A stretch of DNA of 38,935 nt from Chloroflexota bacterium (GTDB taxonomy: Bacteria; Chloroflexota; Dehalococcoidia; DSTF01; RBG-16-68-14): NCBI GenBank assembly GCA_022565155.1, contig JADFKB010000011.1, positions 1 to 38,935 of the forward strand. Direction: 5' to 3'. Every line of letters starts with the position of its first letter. The stretch's first letter is position 1. Below, piece after piece: positions 30,979 to 37,356 of the stretch. Below the pieces are notes generated by a model, which searched no databases, had not been told where the DNA came from, and was given only the letters and a program-made list of their open reading frames with translations. A program made the translations under genes and the position numbers.

Positions 30979-31980
30979 ATGATACGCCTGCCTGGCCGGC
31001 GTTCCCGCCCGCGCGTTTACGTCACGCGCCAACTCCCCGGCGACGCGCTCGACCGGCTACGTGAACAAGCGCAGGTCGATATTTGGGGTGACGACCTGCC
31101 GCCGCCGCGCGACGAGCTGTTGGCCGCGCTGGCCGAGGCCGAGGGGCTGATCTGCCTGCTCACCGATAACATCGACGCCGGGCTGCTGCAGGAGGCGCCA
31201 AATCTACGCGCCATCAGCACGATGGCCGTCGGCTACGACCACATCGATATCGAGGCGGCGACGGCGAACGGCGTGCTGGTGACCCACACGCCCGGCGTGC
31301 TGACGGAGACGACGGCCGATTTCACTTTCGCGCTGCTGCTCTCGGCCGCGCGCCGCCTACCGGAGGGCGAGCGGGCCGTGCGCGAAGGTCGCTGGAGCAG
31401 CTGGAGCCCTTCGTTCCTACTCGGACGCGACGTGCACGGAGCGACGCTGGGCATCGTTGGCCTGGGCGAGATCGGGCTGGCCGTCGCTCGTCGCGCCCGC
31501 GGCTTCGATATGCGCGTGCTCTACCATAGCCGCACTCGCAAGCCGGCGGCCGAAGAGGAGCTGGGCTGCGTCTACGTCGGCTTCGACGAGTTGCTGGACG
31601 AGTCCGACTTCGTGTCCGTCCACCTCCCACTCACACCGGAGACGCGCCACCTGTTCGGCGACGCTGCGTTCGAGCGGATGAAGACGACAGCGATCTTCGT
31701 CAACACGGCCCGCGGCGCGGTCGTCGACGAGGCGGCGCTAATGCGCGCTCTGGAATCGCAGGCCATCGCCGGCGCGGCGGTCGACGTGGCGGAGGTGGAG
31801 CCGCTGCCGCGCCACGACCCGCTGCTGCGCCTGCCGAACCTGCTGGCGACACCGCACATCGCCTCCGCCAGCGTCGCCACGCGCTCGCGGATGGCGGAGA
31901 TGGCGGTCGATAATCTGCTATCGGCGCTCGCCGGAGAGACGCCTGCGCACTGCGTCAACCCACAGATAATCGATACCTAA
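30979..31980 (+). CDS. Second D-isomer-specific 2-hydroxyacid dehydrogenase
   Basis: A 333-residue protein with Rossmann motif GIVGLGEIGLAVARR, catalytic Arg in NTARGAVVDEAAL, Glu in DVAEVEPLP and His in ATPHIASAS. It is a paralogue of the gene at 6630 (shared RDELLAALAEAEG and general layout), but the N-terminus is longer and basic (RLPGRRSRPR). Likely a glyoxylate/hydroxypyruvate-type reductase. It ends 35 bp before the promoter of the tryptophan-rich leader. Confidence 0.92.
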   Translation: MIRLPGRRSRPRVYVTRQLPGDALDRLREQAQVDIWGDDLPPPRDELLAALAEAEGLICLLTDNIDAGLLQEAPNLRAISTMAVGYDHIDIEAATANGVLVTHTPGVLTETTADFTFALLLSAARRLPEGERAVREGRWSSWSPSFLLGRDVHGATLGIVGLGEIGLAVARRARGFDMRVLYHSRTRKPAAEEELGCVYVGFDELLDESDFVSVHLPLTPETRHLFGDAAFERMKTTAIFVNTARGAVVDEAALMRALESQAIAGAAVDVAEVEPLPRHDPLLRLPNLLATPHIASASVATRSRMAEMAVDNLLSALAGETPAHCVNPQIIDT

Positions 31981-32015
31981 CCGATGATAGCACCGGCTAC
32001 CGAGTGATCTGTCTC

Positions 32016-32044
32016 TTGACAATTCTTGGTCGCAGGAGTATTGT
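32016..32044 (+). promoter_or_regulatory. Strong promoter of the leader peptide and PyrE-like gene
   Basis: TTGACA at 32016-32021, a 17-bp spacer and TATTGT at 32039-32044. This is among the best promoter matches in the window. Transcription would start near 32051, leaving a leader of about 290 nt before the PyrE-like gene, unusually long for this window. Confidence 0.75.
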
Positions 32045-32093
32045 CTCGGTAGAGATCCCTGCAGGACTTGAGACAGTCCGAAAGGAGGCTCTC

Positions 32094-32144
32094 ATGAAAG
32101 TCAGTACGCGGGTTCTCTGGGGTGTTTGGCAGGTTGACTGGTAA
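32094..32144 (+). CDS. Tryptophan-rich leader peptide (16 residues)
   Basis: The peptide MKVSTRVLWGVWQVDW* has three Trp codons (positions 9, 12 and 16; TGG at 32118, 32127, 32139) in sixteen. AAGGAGG at 32082-32088 lies 5 nt before the ATG, a near-perfect ribosome site, so it is very likely translated. The last Trp directly precedes the stop, and a perfect 9-bp hairpin begins 1 nt after the stop. This layout matches an attenuation or ribosome-stalling leader sensing tryptophan supply. The next gene is a PyrE-like phosphoribosyltransferase, not a trp gene. A short 28-codon open frame (32201-32287) follows but has no ribosome site. Confidence 0.75.
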   Translation: MKVSTRVLWGVWQVDW

Positions 32145-32145
32145 C

Positions 32146-32168
32146 GCCCTATCGGAGGACGATAGGGC
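32146..32168 (+). promoter_or_regulatory. Leader hairpin 1, next to the leader peptide stop
   Basis: GCCCTATCG at 32146-32154, loop GAGGA, CGATAGGGC at 32160-32168: a perfect 9-bp stem starting 1 nt after the TAA. There is no U-tract. Its 5' arm (GCCCTA) can also pair with TAGGGC of the second hairpin (32285-32290), and its 3' arm (AGGGC) with GCCCT of hairpin 2 (32308-32312). The folds exclude each other as in an attenuator. Confidence 0.65.
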
Positions 32169-32285
32169 TCACCGCAACGCCAGGCTCCACACATGCGCAG
32201 ATGATGGAACGCACGCCTGATGCGATTCCGAGCCGTTGGGAGCTACCCAATCGTGGGGCCGGCGGGACATTGAACCAAATATCCT

Positions 32286-32312
32286 AGGGCTTTCCCAGGA
32301 CGGGAAGGCCCT
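32286..32312 (+). terminator. Leader hairpin 2, terminator-like, 27 bp before the PyrE-like gene
   Basis: GGGCTTTCCC at 32287-32296, loop AGGAC, GGGAAGGCCC at 32302-32311, giving a 10-bp stem with one G-U pair and one further A-U pair. Only TTAT follows, so intrinsic termination would be weak unless helped. It is read as the candidate attenuator terminator. Confidence 0.5.
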
Positions 32313-32339
32313 TATCACATACAAGGCAGGACGCCACAC

Positions 32340-33005
32340 ATGGCCCAGAGCGAAGAGTTCGCCCGCAGCAGCAACCTCTGGCTGGCGGAAACGCTCTGGG
32401 AGCTAGGCGCCGTCCAGTTCGGCAGCTTCACCCTCGGCCGCACCACGGTCGACTCGCCGGTGTACGTCAACCTGCGACTGCTCATCGGCCATCCGGAGGC
32501 GCTCTGGCGCGTCGCCCACGTCATCCACAGTGAGATCCAGGCGCTTCAGCGCAAGCTCCACCCCCAGGTGGCGCCGTTCGACCTCGTCGCGGGCGTGCCG
32601 TTCGGCGGGCTGCACATCGCCGCGGCGTACTCGCTCAGCGCGAAGCTGCCGATGATCTACCTCCACCCGCGCCCGGACGACCTGGGCAGCGACATCGAAG
32701 GGCTCTACCGGCTGAACCAGCGCGCGCTGATCATGGACGACCTGCTGGCCGGCGGCGGCAGTATCCTGGAAACGGCGCTGCAACTGGGAGAGGCCGGCCT
32801 GATGGTACGCGACGCCGTCGTGCTGCTGGACAGGCAGCAGGGCGGCCGGGAGCGGCTCCAGGACCAGGGCGTGAACCTTGTCTCGCTGCTGACGCTGGAG
32901 GTGCTGGTGAACTACCTGATGTTCAGCGGCAAGATCTCCGATGAGCAGTTCCAGAAGACGATGCAGTTCCTGCGCACCCACGGCCACCTAGAAAGCGACA
33001 GCTAG
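32340..33005 (+). CDS. PyrE-like (orotate phosphoribosyltransferase family) protein with unusual loop
   Basis: A 221-residue type I phosphoribosyltransferase. The PRPP-binding motif ALIMDDLLAGGGSILETA (129-146), GVPFGGLHIA (85-94), the PVYVNLRLLIGHPEAL stretch and the tail DAVVLLDRQQGG place it in the orotate phosphoribosyltransferase family. The flexible catalytic loop, normally KE-K-HG rich, reads HPRPDDLGSDIEG here and has no Lys or His in the expected places, so it may not make OMP. The last 40 residues form a helical tail. It lies 195 bp downstream of a Trp-rich leader peptide with hairpins, pointing to regulation by amino-acid supply. No Shine-Dalgarno is clear (AGGACG at a distance). 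Confidence 0.8.
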   Translation: MAQSEEFARSSNLWLAETLWELGAVQFGSFTLGRTTVDSPVYVNLRLLIGHPEALWRVAHVIHSEIQALQRKLHPQVAPFDLVAGVPFGGLHIAAAYSLSAKLPMIYLHPRPDDLGSDIEGLYRLNQRALIMDDLLAGGGSILETALQLGEAGLMVRDAVVLLDRQQGGRERLQDQGVNLVSLLTLEVLVNYLMFSGKISDEQFQKTMQFLRTHGHLESDS

Positions 33006-33032
33006 GCTGTCGCTCAACGCTCTCCGCATTTC

Positions 33033-33061
33033 TTGACCAGACGTTTGGCTACTGGTACGTT
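33033..33061 (+). promoter_or_regulatory. Promoter of the lipoprotein gene
   Basis: TTGACC at 33033-33038, a 17-bp spacer and TACGTT at 33056-33061. It lies 35 bp before the TTG start, with AGGAGGT at 33084. Confidence 0.6.
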
Positions 33062-33096
33062 GCCATCGTTATGTTTTGCCCTCAGGAGGTAATCAA

Positions 33097-33819
33097 TTGA
33101 CCAATTTCACGCGGACATTCTTGTTCGTCATCGCACTCATCGTAGGGGCGTTGCTGCTCGCTTGCAGCAGCGATAGCGACAGCGGTGATGGCAACGGCGA
33201 TCAGCCGTCGGGCGATGCGGCCACCGAGCTGCGCAACCTAGCCGCCCAGTTCGGGCAGCAGGAGATCAAGATCGAGTACCAGTTCACCAGCGGAGCAGCC
33301 GGAGGCATCGATGACGTCACGATGACGCTCTACTGGAAGCCGCCTGACGCTCAGCGGACGGACCTCTCTACGAGCGAAGGCGACGTGACGTTGATCACCA
33401 CGGCCGGCGGTTCGTATATCTGTGCCTCGGCCGTCAACCAGTGCTTGGAGTCACCGATCGGCGATTCACTCACGCCGGACTTCTTCGACATCTTTACAGA
33501 GCCGGACATTCTCATCGACCAGATCGACGCCGTACTCGGAGACCTCAATGTCGACCGGTCCACCCGCACGATCGCCGGCCAGGACGCCACCTGCTTCTCG
33601 CTTTCGGGCACGATTGACGGCGAGACGGGCGCAGTCGAGTACTGCTTCCGCGATGATGGCGTTCTCCTGCTCTTGCGCGCTGGCGGCGGCCCGGCTAACG
33701 GGGGCGGCGGAGAGTCTTCACTGGAGGCGATCTCCGTCGAGGACTCCGTCTCCGATAGCGACTTGGAGCCGCCGTACGACGTGTTGGATGTTGGAGACAT
33801 ACAGGACCTGCTCCCATAA
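33097..33819 (+). CDS. Secreted lipoprotein, unknown function (LppX/LprG-like)
   Basis: A 240-residue protein. The start is a TTG at 33097 because a perfect AGGAGGT lies 6 nt before it; frames open further upstream would bury that site. A signal peptide ends in lipobox LLAC (Cys23), followed by a Ser/Asp/Gly-rich linker and a domain with QEIKIEYQFTS, DVTMTLYWKPPDAQRTD and RTIAGQDATCFSLSG, rich in beta strands. Four cysteines (two pairs, ICASAVNQC and TCF/YCF) may form disulfides. This resembles LppX/LprAFG-type lipid-carrying lipoproteins. It ends at a strong terminator. Confidence 0.75.
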   Translation: MTNFTRTFLFVIALIVGALLLACSSDSDSGDGNGDQPSGDAATELRNLAAQFGQQEIKIEYQFTSGAAGGIDDVTMTLYWKPPDAQRTDLSTSEGDVTLITTAGGSYICASAVNQCLESPIGDSLTPDFFDIFTEPDILIDQIDAVLGDLNVDRSTRTIAGQDATCFSLSGTIDGETGAVEYCFRDDGVLLLLRAGGGPANGGGGESSLEAISVEDSVSDSDLEPPYDVLDVGDIQDLLP

Positions 33820-35404: not shown

Positions 35405-36379
35405 ATGTTCGCCACTGTCGTCGGCAGCTACCCAAAGGTACCGAACCGGCCTCGGCCCGCCCGGCTCCGTAACGCGATCAACAAGCTCGACCGCGGCGCG
35501 ATCACGCAGGCGGAGCTGGATACGGTCGCCGACGAAGTAACGATCGAGGCGCTGGAGGAGCAAGCAGCGGCCGGCCTCGATCTCGTCACCGACGGCCAGA
35601 TCCGCTGGGAGGACGAGCAGACCTACTTCGCCCGCGAGCTGGCCGGCATCTCGATCAACGGCCTGATCCGCTGGTTCGACACCAACATGTACTACCGCCA
35701 GCCCGTCGTCGAAGGCGCGGTTAGCTGGCAGAAACCGGTAACGGTGCGCGACTACAGCTTCGCCGCCGAGCACAGCGCGAAGCCGGTGAAGCCGGTGCTG
35801 ACAGGCCCCTACACGCTCGCCCGCCTCTCCGTCGACAAGCACTACCACGACAACGAGTCGCTGGCGCTGGCGCTCGCCGAGGCGCTGAACCAGGAGGCGA
35901 AGGCGCTGGAAGAGGCCGGCGCGACCCTGATCCAGTTCAACGAGCCGGCGATCTTGAAGCAGAAGGACGACTTCGCCAGCTTCGCAGCGATCTGTAGACG
36001 GCTCGTCGATGGATTGACGGCGGAGACGTCGCTCTACCTCTACTTCGGCGACGCCGAGGGCATCTACCCGCAGCTGCTGGAGCTGCCGTTCGACCTGATC
36101 GGCCTCGACTTCGTGATGGGCGCGGCGAACGAGGCGTTGCTGCGAAGCGCGCCGTTCACGAAGAAGCTGGGCCTGGGCATCATCGACGCCCGCAACACGC
36201 GGCTGGAATCGCCAGAGCAGATCGCGGAGCGGATCCGCAGCCTGAGCGACGGCGTCGACCCGGAGAACGTGCACGTCAGCCCCAGCGCCGGCCTGGAGTT
36301 CCTTCCGCGCGAGGTGGCGCAGGAGAAGCTACGCTTGCTGGCGGAGGGCGTGCGCAAGGCGGAAGGAGTGCTGGTATGA
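35405..36379 (+). CDS. MetE-like barrel lacking the zinc ligands
   Basis: A 324-residue single TIM barrel of the cobalamin-independent methionine synthase family (ATVVGSYPKVP, VTDGQIRWEDEQTYFA, PVLTGPYTLARL, IQFNEPAIL). Alignment with the next gene shows that the four zinc ligands are replaced: His by Tyr211, Cys by Tyr213, Glu by Asp235 and Cys by Ala295. It therefore cannot bind zinc as MetE does and probably is not a homocysteine methyltransferase itself. The next, zinc-competent copy overlaps it by 4 bp (ATGA), suggesting the two proteins act together. AGGAG lies 9 nt before the ATG. Confidence 0.9.
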   Translation: MFATVVGSYPKVPNRPRPARLRNAINKLDRGAITQAELDTVADEVTIEALEEQAAAGLDLVTDGQIRWEDEQTYFARELAGISINGLIRWFDTNMYYRQPVVEGAVSWQKPVTVRDYSFAAEHSAKPVKPVLTGPYTLARLSVDKHYHDNESLALALAEALNQEAKALEEAGATLIQFNEPAILKQKDDFASFAAICRRLVDGLTAETSLYLYFGDAEGIYPQLLELPFDLIGLDFVMGAANEALLRSAPFTKKLGLGIIDARNTRLESPEQIAERIRSLSDGVDPENVHVSPSAGLEFLPREVAQEKLRLLAEGVRKAEGVLV

Positions 36380-37356
36380 CGAAGGGATTGATTACCACAA
36401 CCGTCGGCAGCTTCCCGAAGCCGCCGTACCTGCAGAAGGCGCGCAACCAGTTCTCGGCGGGCAAGCTCTCGCGCGAGGAGCTGGACGAGCTGGAGCGGCA
36501 GGCGACGCGCGAGGTGATCGCGCTGCAGGAGGAGATCGGCATCGATATCCTGGTCGACGGCGAGATGGCGCGCGGCGACATGGTCGTCTTCTTCGCCGAA
36601 CAGCTGGAGGGCATGGAGGCCGGCGGGCTGGTGCGCTCGTACGGCAATCGCTACTACCACAAGCCGGTCGTGAAGGGCCGGGTGCGCTGGACGGCGCCGA
36701 TGACGGTCGATATGTGGCGCTACGCCCAGAGCCTCACGGACAAGCCCGTGAAGGGCGTGCTCACCGGCCCCTACACCATGGTCGAGTGGTCGTTCGTGGA
36801 GGGCTACGACGACTTCCGCTCGGCCGTGCTGGAGATGGCGCGCGCCGTCAACTATGAGGCGCTGGAGCTGGAGCGGGCAGGCGCGCCGTTCATCCAGATC
36901 GACGAGCCGGCGCTGTCTACGCGGCTGGAGGACATCGATCTGGCGATCGAGGCGATGGGCATCGCGACAGAGGGCCTGAACGCACAGACGGCGACGCACA
37001 TCTGCTACGGCGACTTCGTATCGGCCTATCCGCGCTTCCTCGATATGCCCGTAAAGCAGTTCGACCTGGAGATGGCGAACAGCAGCCACGACCTGGTCGA
37101 ACTGCTGAAGACGAAAGGCTTTCCTGAGGACAAGGAGATCGCCTGGGGCGTCGTCGACGTTCACAGCCACGAGATCGAGACGGTCGACCAGGTTGTCGCC
37201 GAGATCAAGCGCGGGCTGGAGGTGCTGCCGCCCGAACGGCTCTACATCGACCCCGACTGCGGCCTGAAGACGCGCACCTGGGACGAATCGGCGGACAAGC
37301 TGCGCGTCATCGCCCAGGCCGTAGCGCAGGTGAAGAGCGAGCTCGGCATCGAGTAG
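36376..37356 (+). CDS. Core-MetE-type methionine synthase with intact zinc site
   Basis: A 326-residue single-barrel protein equivalent to the C-terminal half of MetE. The zinc ligands H208 and C210 (THICYGD), E232 (FDLEMANS; 24 residues after the His, the same spacing as in E. coli MetE) and C295 (PDCGLKTR) are all present. Such core-MetE proteins in Dehalococcoides and archaea take the methyl group from methylcobalamin or a corrinoid protein, not from folate, to make methionine. The usual N-terminal MetE half is missing. Its start overlaps the zinc-free paralogue by 4 bp. The methyl donor is not identifiable here. Confidence 0.9.
   Translation: MTKGLITTTVGSFPKPPYLQKARNQFSAGKLSREELDELERQATREVIALQEEIGIDILVDGEMARGDMVVFFAEQLEGMEAGGLVRSYGNRYYHKPVVKGRVRWTAPMTVDMWRYAQSLTDKPVKGVLTGPYTMVEWSFVEGYDDFRSAVLEMARAVNYEALELERAGAPFIQIDEPALSTRLEDIDLAIEAMGIATEGLNAQTATHICYGDFVSAYPRFLDMPVKQFDLEMANSSHDLVELLKTKGFPEDKEIAWGVVDVHSHEIETVDQVVAEIKRGLEVLPPERLYIDPDCGLKTRTWDESADKLRVIAQAVAQVKSELGIE

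Follow-up and report, generated by a model that had tools for sequence, protein, structure and literature searches.

Which kind of RNA is encoded ahead of the PyrE-like gene of a Chloroflexota bacterium (contig JADFKB010000011.1), and does it control that gene? In the window, by which we mean the whole stretch of 38,935 nucleotides that was analysed, a first-pass annotation had described a promoter, a ribosome site, a 16-codon ORF with three TGG codons, a hairpin 1 nt past its stop codon and a terminator-like hairpin, and had interpreted them as a tryptophan-rich leader with mutually exclusive hairpins. We found every one of these elements in the sequence (Table 1); their interpretation is the subject of what follows.

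Table 1. Features of the RNA unit and of the following gene; coordinates are those of the window.
Feature	Coordinates	Strand	Evidence and remarks
RNA promoter, TTGACA-17-TATTGT	32016-32044	+	sequence scan; TTGAC enrichment family-wide
Shine-Dalgarno site, AAAGGAGG	32081-32088	+	sequence
Micro-ORF, MKVSTRVLWGVWQVDW, then stop	32094-32144	+	ATG at 32094, 16 codons, TAA at 32142-32144; peptide-level conservation
Core codons, G-V-W-Q-V-D	32121-32138	+	Asp codon at 32136-32138, 7 nt 5' of H1
Hairpin H1, GCCCTATCG-GAGGA-CGATAGGGC	32146-32168	+	perfect 9 bp, 1 nt past the stop; covariation
Long-range helix P1, 5' arm	32178-32190	+	window fold; compensatory changes in the order, strong in the wider class
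Branched-domain interior, with a variable arm (P2) and P3	32191-32252	+	fold; covariation in the wider class
P3, GTTGGG-AGCTA-CCCAAT	32235-32251	+	fold; weak support in the window's own order
Helix P1, 3' arm	32253-32264	+	fold and covariation
Terminator hairpin, GGGCTTTCCC-AGGAC-GGGAAGGCCC	32287-32311 (to 32319 with the U tract)	+	family-wide terminator scores; stem covariation
PyrE/UMPS-like phosphoribosyltransferase (PRT) paralogue without the loop Lys/His	32340-33005	+	profile and phmmer matches

The promoter, with its -35 element TTGACA at 32016-32021 and its -10 element TATTGT at 32039-32044 separated by 17 nt, has a consensus score of 10/12 and is the sole promoter-like site within 31500-33400, where shuffled sequence yields 0.2. 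The TGG codons of the micro-ORF are located at 32118, 32127 and 32139. The terminator-like hairpin, 28 nt 5' of the PRT gene, has a poor U tract (TTATCACA) and was not called by a simple terminator scan of the + strand. The RNA from 32139 to 32330 is predicted to fold with -82.4 kcal/mol, compared to -62.2 +/- 4.4 kcal/mol for its shuffles (z -4.6), and this fold includes the long-range helix P1 (32178-32190 with 32253-32264), which the first-pass annotation had missed, along with how very widely the unit is conserved.

A search for codons specifying GVWQVD gave 48 matches in 294 genomes of the class, against 1 in the reversed control. When the motif was combined with an H1 start at 7 nt and searched for in one genome each of 84,980 species, 88 stretches were retrieved, and nearly all of the listed records are named as Chloroflexota/Chloroflexi, Dehalococcoidia, Thermomicrobiales or Thermoflexaceae; motif matches inside coding genes (L064, L077, L087, L088, L093, L096 and L199) were excluded as false, and a single 'Clostridiales' record seems to match by chance. 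The copy in a record labelled Deltaproteobacteria (L198, JABMRW010000038.1) is typical of Dehalococcoidia, and mis-binning of this contig is the probable reason. A covariance model of the ORF and H1 found matches in 71 of 350 genomes of the phylum, and a broader one in 97 of 288 genomes of the class, about one third; for the two thirds with no match, absence of the RNA is uncertain, since many of the genomes are metagenome-assembled. Neither the unit nor its relatives gave a gathering match in Rfam, where permissive E-values also gave nothing convincing, and the motif was not found in the collection of papers searched, the titles and abstracts listed in wider searches showing no Chloroflexota RNA of this kind. 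An origin as a viral element was considered and discounted, since the motif pattern was not found in a viral contig collection. Sequence comparison thus identifies the unit as a copy of a previously undescribed structured RNA family, Chloroflexota-wide and absent from Rfam, now represented by more than 130 aligned copies and two covariance models. To our knowledge, phylum-wide structured RNAs are rare and few have been known from Chloroflexota.

The structure was tested on an alignment of 43 copies drawn from other families in the class. Of the 47 pairs in the five helices (H1, the 14-bp P1, P2, P3 and the terminator), 38 show compensatory changes; double-change cells number 220, compared to 65 +/- 8 in shuffled and 40-60 in slid controls. 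For H1 alone, 62 diverse copies yield 44 such cells where shuffling gives 12.6, so that the compensatory stem changes which the first-pass annotation had suggested looking for are indeed present. In the 16 copies of the window's own order, H1 and P1 have support (25 double-change cells versus 12.8 +/- 2.8), P3 has weak support and the variable arm is poorly aligned. Copies outside the class have, by eye, a similar layout with different sequences. The proposed mutual exclusion of the hairpins fared differently: GCCCTA (32146-32151), in the 5' arm of H1, is complementary over 6 bp to TAGGGC (32285-32290), so the alternative pairing can form in the window, but across the family the longest complementary run between the 5' arms of H1 and the terminator is no better than that of permuted partners (4.85 versus 4.76 +/- 0.06, matched or exceeded in 27 of 300 permutations), and we rejected a conserved switch of this type.

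Peptide statistics were based on 104 distinct exact-motif copies with a start codon, a ribosome site and H1. The conserved C-terminal core of the family is G-V-[W/L/F/R/M]-Q-[V/I]-D, and its third codon positions vary freely: the first core Val is encoded by its four codons in near-equal numbers (28/27/26/23), and both CAG/CAA and GAC/GAT occur. The constraint lies at the amino acid level, with synonymous positions free, which argues that the ORF is under selection as a peptide. Its length is mostly 12-20 codons across the family, and a Shine-Dalgarno site is present in every copy accepted as real; together with the covariation of H1, these observations bear out the leader ORF and its hairpin as conserved elements, the translation of the ORF being predicted. 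GVWQVD is mostly preceded by Y/F/L/W, and there is no conservation at the position following Asp; R or K comes after Q-V-D in 37 of the 104 copies. We also observed two unusual peptides: in L130 (G387), at about 134-182, a 10-codon block is duplicated in tandem within the micro-ORF (FLGAWQVDQAFLGVWQVD, then stop), and in L135 (G185) the promoter, the Shine-Dalgarno site, H1 and the domain layout are alike, with the peptide MQLSKFIGVWLFPS (then stop), in which the core after GVW is replaced.

The three TGG codons, the hairpin, the terminator and the downstream gene of the window are what one would expect from a tryptophan attenuator, in which Trp shortage would stall ribosomes at the Trp codons and alter the hairpins that precede the PRT gene, and the PRT lineage shares with trpL, pheL and hisL a short ORF, a good ribosome site, and hairpins with a terminator before a gene. 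This is the reading that the first-pass annotation had put forward, and it is not sustained by the relatives. Peptides with one Trp (66 copies) outnumber those with two (33) or three (5) among the 104 exact-motif copies, the last Trp of the window peptide is kept in 7 of them, and neither the first nor the last Trp is conserved. Even the core Trp is variable: in 38 copies found by the covariance model, and therefore independently of the exact motif, the position is occupied by W in 13, L in 13, F in 6, R in 4 and M in 2 (by eye), that is, Trp is replaced in 25 of 38, and many of these peptides are Trp-free. The variants found (GVLQVD, GVFQVD, GVRQVD, GVMQID, GRWQID, GVWEVD and GVWQTD) mostly retain Q-V/I-D and keep the hairpin and the spacing intact, as peptides without Trp retain the remainder of the unit. 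Sensing of Trp codons is very unlikely, since the middle Trp varies and the first and last are not conserved; whatever signal is sensed would not be the supply of Trp codons. No genes of tryptophan synthesis, transport or use were seen downstream of the copies and, in contrast to trpL, pheL and hisL, there is neither a conserved run of a single amino acid, nor a conserved terminator/antiterminator switch, nor a matching biosynthetic operon, while most Chloroflexota copies have no gene to control. With the alternative pairing also unconserved, we regard a tryptophan attenuator as highly improbable; a Trp-rich look in a single genome can mislead.

What is conserved instead seems to be the distance between the core and the hairpin. 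The Asp codon lies 7 nt from H1 in 86 of 90 copies, a count partly set by the search pattern (motif and H1 start at 7 nt), and the covariance-model matches, whose spacing was free to vary, again have mostly 7 nt (by eye). The position of the stop codon is free: it comes right after Asp or one codon further on in two thirds of the copies, and one third read on into H1. Since a third of the ORFs continue into H1, the stop codon is not the conserved point, and termination arrest at the stop codon was ruled out. Frameshifting was considered as well and rejected, there being by eye no slippery heptamer before H1.

The gene downstream is a PyrE paralogue. It matches PRK13809 (E 3.7e-40) and the human UMPS domain (phmmer, E 8.5e-28), and scores 75.7 bits with the pyrE profile, under the 106.8 cut-off. 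Its loop, YLHPRPDDLG, is without the Lys/His of orotate phosphoribosyltransferases, an absence common to 28 aligned orthologues, in agreement with the degenerate loop noted previously for the window gene. The PRPP motif, DDLLAGGGS in the window and DDL..GG.S in most orthologues, and the profile matches assign the protein, by sequence, to the type-I PRT fold with a predicted PRPP-binding motif; the score below the curated PyrE cut-off and the absent loop Lys/His do not support a canonical orotate phosphoribosyltransferase. A second, separate PyrE of the same genome lies above the curated cut-off.

PRT orthologues occur in the window's family, order and class, and we searched upstream of them for the leader, as had been suggested. 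The RNA is directly upstream in 16 of 29 orthologues, from five families (f1, f3, f4, f25 and f39), and a 17th PRT-linked case (L097, in G091) was reached via the RNA itself. Most orthologues in the order are preceded by an ORF that ends in R-[VI]-[LR]-[WF]-G-V-W-Q-V-D, followed by the same hairpin and terminator, and within the PRT lineage the distance from the terminator to the start codon is mostly 4-37 nt. G003, G006 and G009 are among the genomes whose PRT lacks an upstream RNA; there the RNA sits elsewhere. Since the RNA is directly upstream in 16 of 29 orthologues, its control of the PRT is plausible and, as the gene lies within tens of nucleotides of the terminator, transcription, whether from this promoter or from further upstream, must pass it. 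PRT control by terminator read-through is, on these positional grounds, likely. The RNA may thus be a regulatory RNA tied to a PyrE paralogue.

This link is, however, only part of the picture. Of 103 copies, 84 have TTGAC at 60-150 nt 5' of the core motif, whereas a control region has it in 1 of 96, and 89 are followed by a terminator that scores at least 18. With orientation taken from ORF heuristics, 56 copies share a strand with the next gene and 41 lie opposite to it, or about 44:41 when the PRT copies are left out. About half of the non-PRT copies face a convergent gene, yet they retain the promoter, the ORF, the fold and the terminator. A copy thus typically stands free as an RNA gene of its own, with promoter and terminator, and with the next gene oriented at random. 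The genes near the copies include PRT, sirtuin and cysS, besides unrelated or convergent genes. The RNA is not PRT-specific, and most copies are autonomous units; of the link to the PRT that had been proposed, the conserved association stands (16 of 29) and its exclusivity does not.

These contexts weigh against a purely cis-acting attenuator of the PRT, in which a metabolite would provoke nascent-peptide arrest, as in ErmBL or TnaC, and free-standing copies would be decayed or misread. Such an attenuator would agree with the position of the RNA directly 5' of 16 of 29 PRT genes and with the short distance of their start codons from the terminator, and the 37 of 104 copies that have R or K after Q-V-D resemble what ErmBL requires (PMC4935803). 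It would leave unexplained the copies that face a convergent gene and keep all parts, and the alternative terminator pairing and the residue after Asp are not conserved. We consider it unlikely.

Compact or deviating versions were also found. In L251, L257, L295-L297, L299, L300 and L302 (mostly of f23), a compact GVLQVD leader with hairpin and terminator lies directly before a sirtuin gene (CobB/Sir2), assigned by NCBIfam; the f23 version lacks the 3' domain. L071-L074 (four in one genome, G231) and L075 (G239) are GVWQVD modules immediately 5' of genes for predicted secreted proteins, in which the loop of H1 is longer, or the 3' domain and the terminator are absent.

The computational evidence presented above establishes conservation, peptide constraint, covariation, a discrete transcription unit, independence from Trp codons and a mostly free-standing context. 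We hypothesize that 32016-32319 is a new Chloroflexota-wide small RNA in which a ribosome pause at Asp against H1 sets the fold, a reading that we hold to be moderately probable. The transcript, of about 250-300 nt, would run from its own promoter to its own terminator and comprise a translated ORF, H1 at a fixed distance and a folded 3' domain. After ...G-V-x-Q-V-D the ribosome would pause with its P (or A) site on the Asp codon and its mRNA entry up against H1, and the presence or absence of a ribosome at H1 would determine the fold of the 3' domain. The pause at Asp is suggested by spacing and conservation; simple termination near H1 may also take place, since two thirds of the copies stop right after Asp and a third are without a stop before H1. 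In the window's lineage, where there seems to be no room for a further promoter between terminator and PRT, the state of the ribosome would also set read-through past the weak terminator into the PRT gene, whereas the output of free-standing copies would have to be either the peptide or the RNA as such. The compact versions without a 3' domain directly before genes (G231, f23) weigh against this explanation, as do the two thirds of the sampled class genomes in which the model had no match. It offers clear predictions, namely a pause at Asp and effects of H1 and of the core residues.

Known arrest peptides offer a mechanistic lead. On ErmBL, the stalled ribosome has Asp10 in its P site, and Arg7 and Val9-Lys11 are required (PMC4935803). 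The new RNA shares with ErmBL and TnaC a conserved C-terminal peptide motif and a hairpin directly downstream, and with ErmBL an Asp at the presumed stall codon (cf. Asp10; PMC4935803). It differs from both in having no homology to them and no resistance or tna gene downstream, with an arrest that is putative, and Arg7 and Lys11 of ErmBL are without a conserved counterpart. By analogy, then, ErmBL would be a lead to the mechanism and not a relative.

SgrS/SgrT and RNAIII are dual-function small RNAs, and a similar explanation is a real possibility here, if not a probable one: a free-standing RNA whose peptide, 3' domain or both act in trans, the ORF being translated for the peptide itself and not for sensing, with the position before the PRT as an incidental inheritance. 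The autonomy of most copies, the random orientation of the next gene and the conservation of the core as a peptide would be in line with it, and there are precedents in peTrpL, a leader peptide that acts in trans (PMC7298713), and yfr6, a short ORF inside a cyanobacterial small RNA of about 250 nt (PMC2864571). A purely trans-acting peptide would nevertheless have no need of a near-fixed distance from Asp to the hairpin, and the placement before PRT genes in several families and before a sirtuin gene points to cis use in some lineages. A free-standing small RNA with a translated short ORF (translation being predicted here) is common to SgrS/SgrT, RNAIII, peTrpL and the new RNA, which is unrelated to them in sequence and structure, has a fixed spacing between ORF and hairpin and, as far as searched, is present only in Chloroflexota. 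In yfr6 and the Downstream-peptide RNAs, which also combine a conserved short ORF with a small RNA of about 250 nt, the conserved structure is a 5' UTR acting on downstream genes (PMC2864571), whereas the Chloroflexota structure lies 3' of the ORF, belongs to another phylum and has no Rfam match.

The combination of a conserved micro-ORF, a hairpin at nearly fixed spacing and a covarying domain fits poorly with the usual picture of an attenuator, a riboswitch or an sRNA, because there is mostly no gene to regulate. More tentatively than the pausing mechanism itself, and with considerable doubt, we suggest a new kind of bacterial RNA, free-standing and phylum-wide, whose state would be set by a ribosome parked, next to a hairpin, at a conserved peptide motif and which would act in trans and have been repeatedly recruited in cis. 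If so, the RNA would report on the ribosome's condition or on a ligand in the ribosomal tunnel, with cis use before the PRT and sirtuin genes.

Two further observations concern neighbouring genes. In two unrelated families (L078 in G071 and L317 in G113), the gene after the RNA is cysteinyl-tRNA synthetase-like. In the window, two adjacent genes at 35405-37356 are each related to cobalamin-independent methionine synthase, in both cases to its C-terminal half (PRK04326-like).
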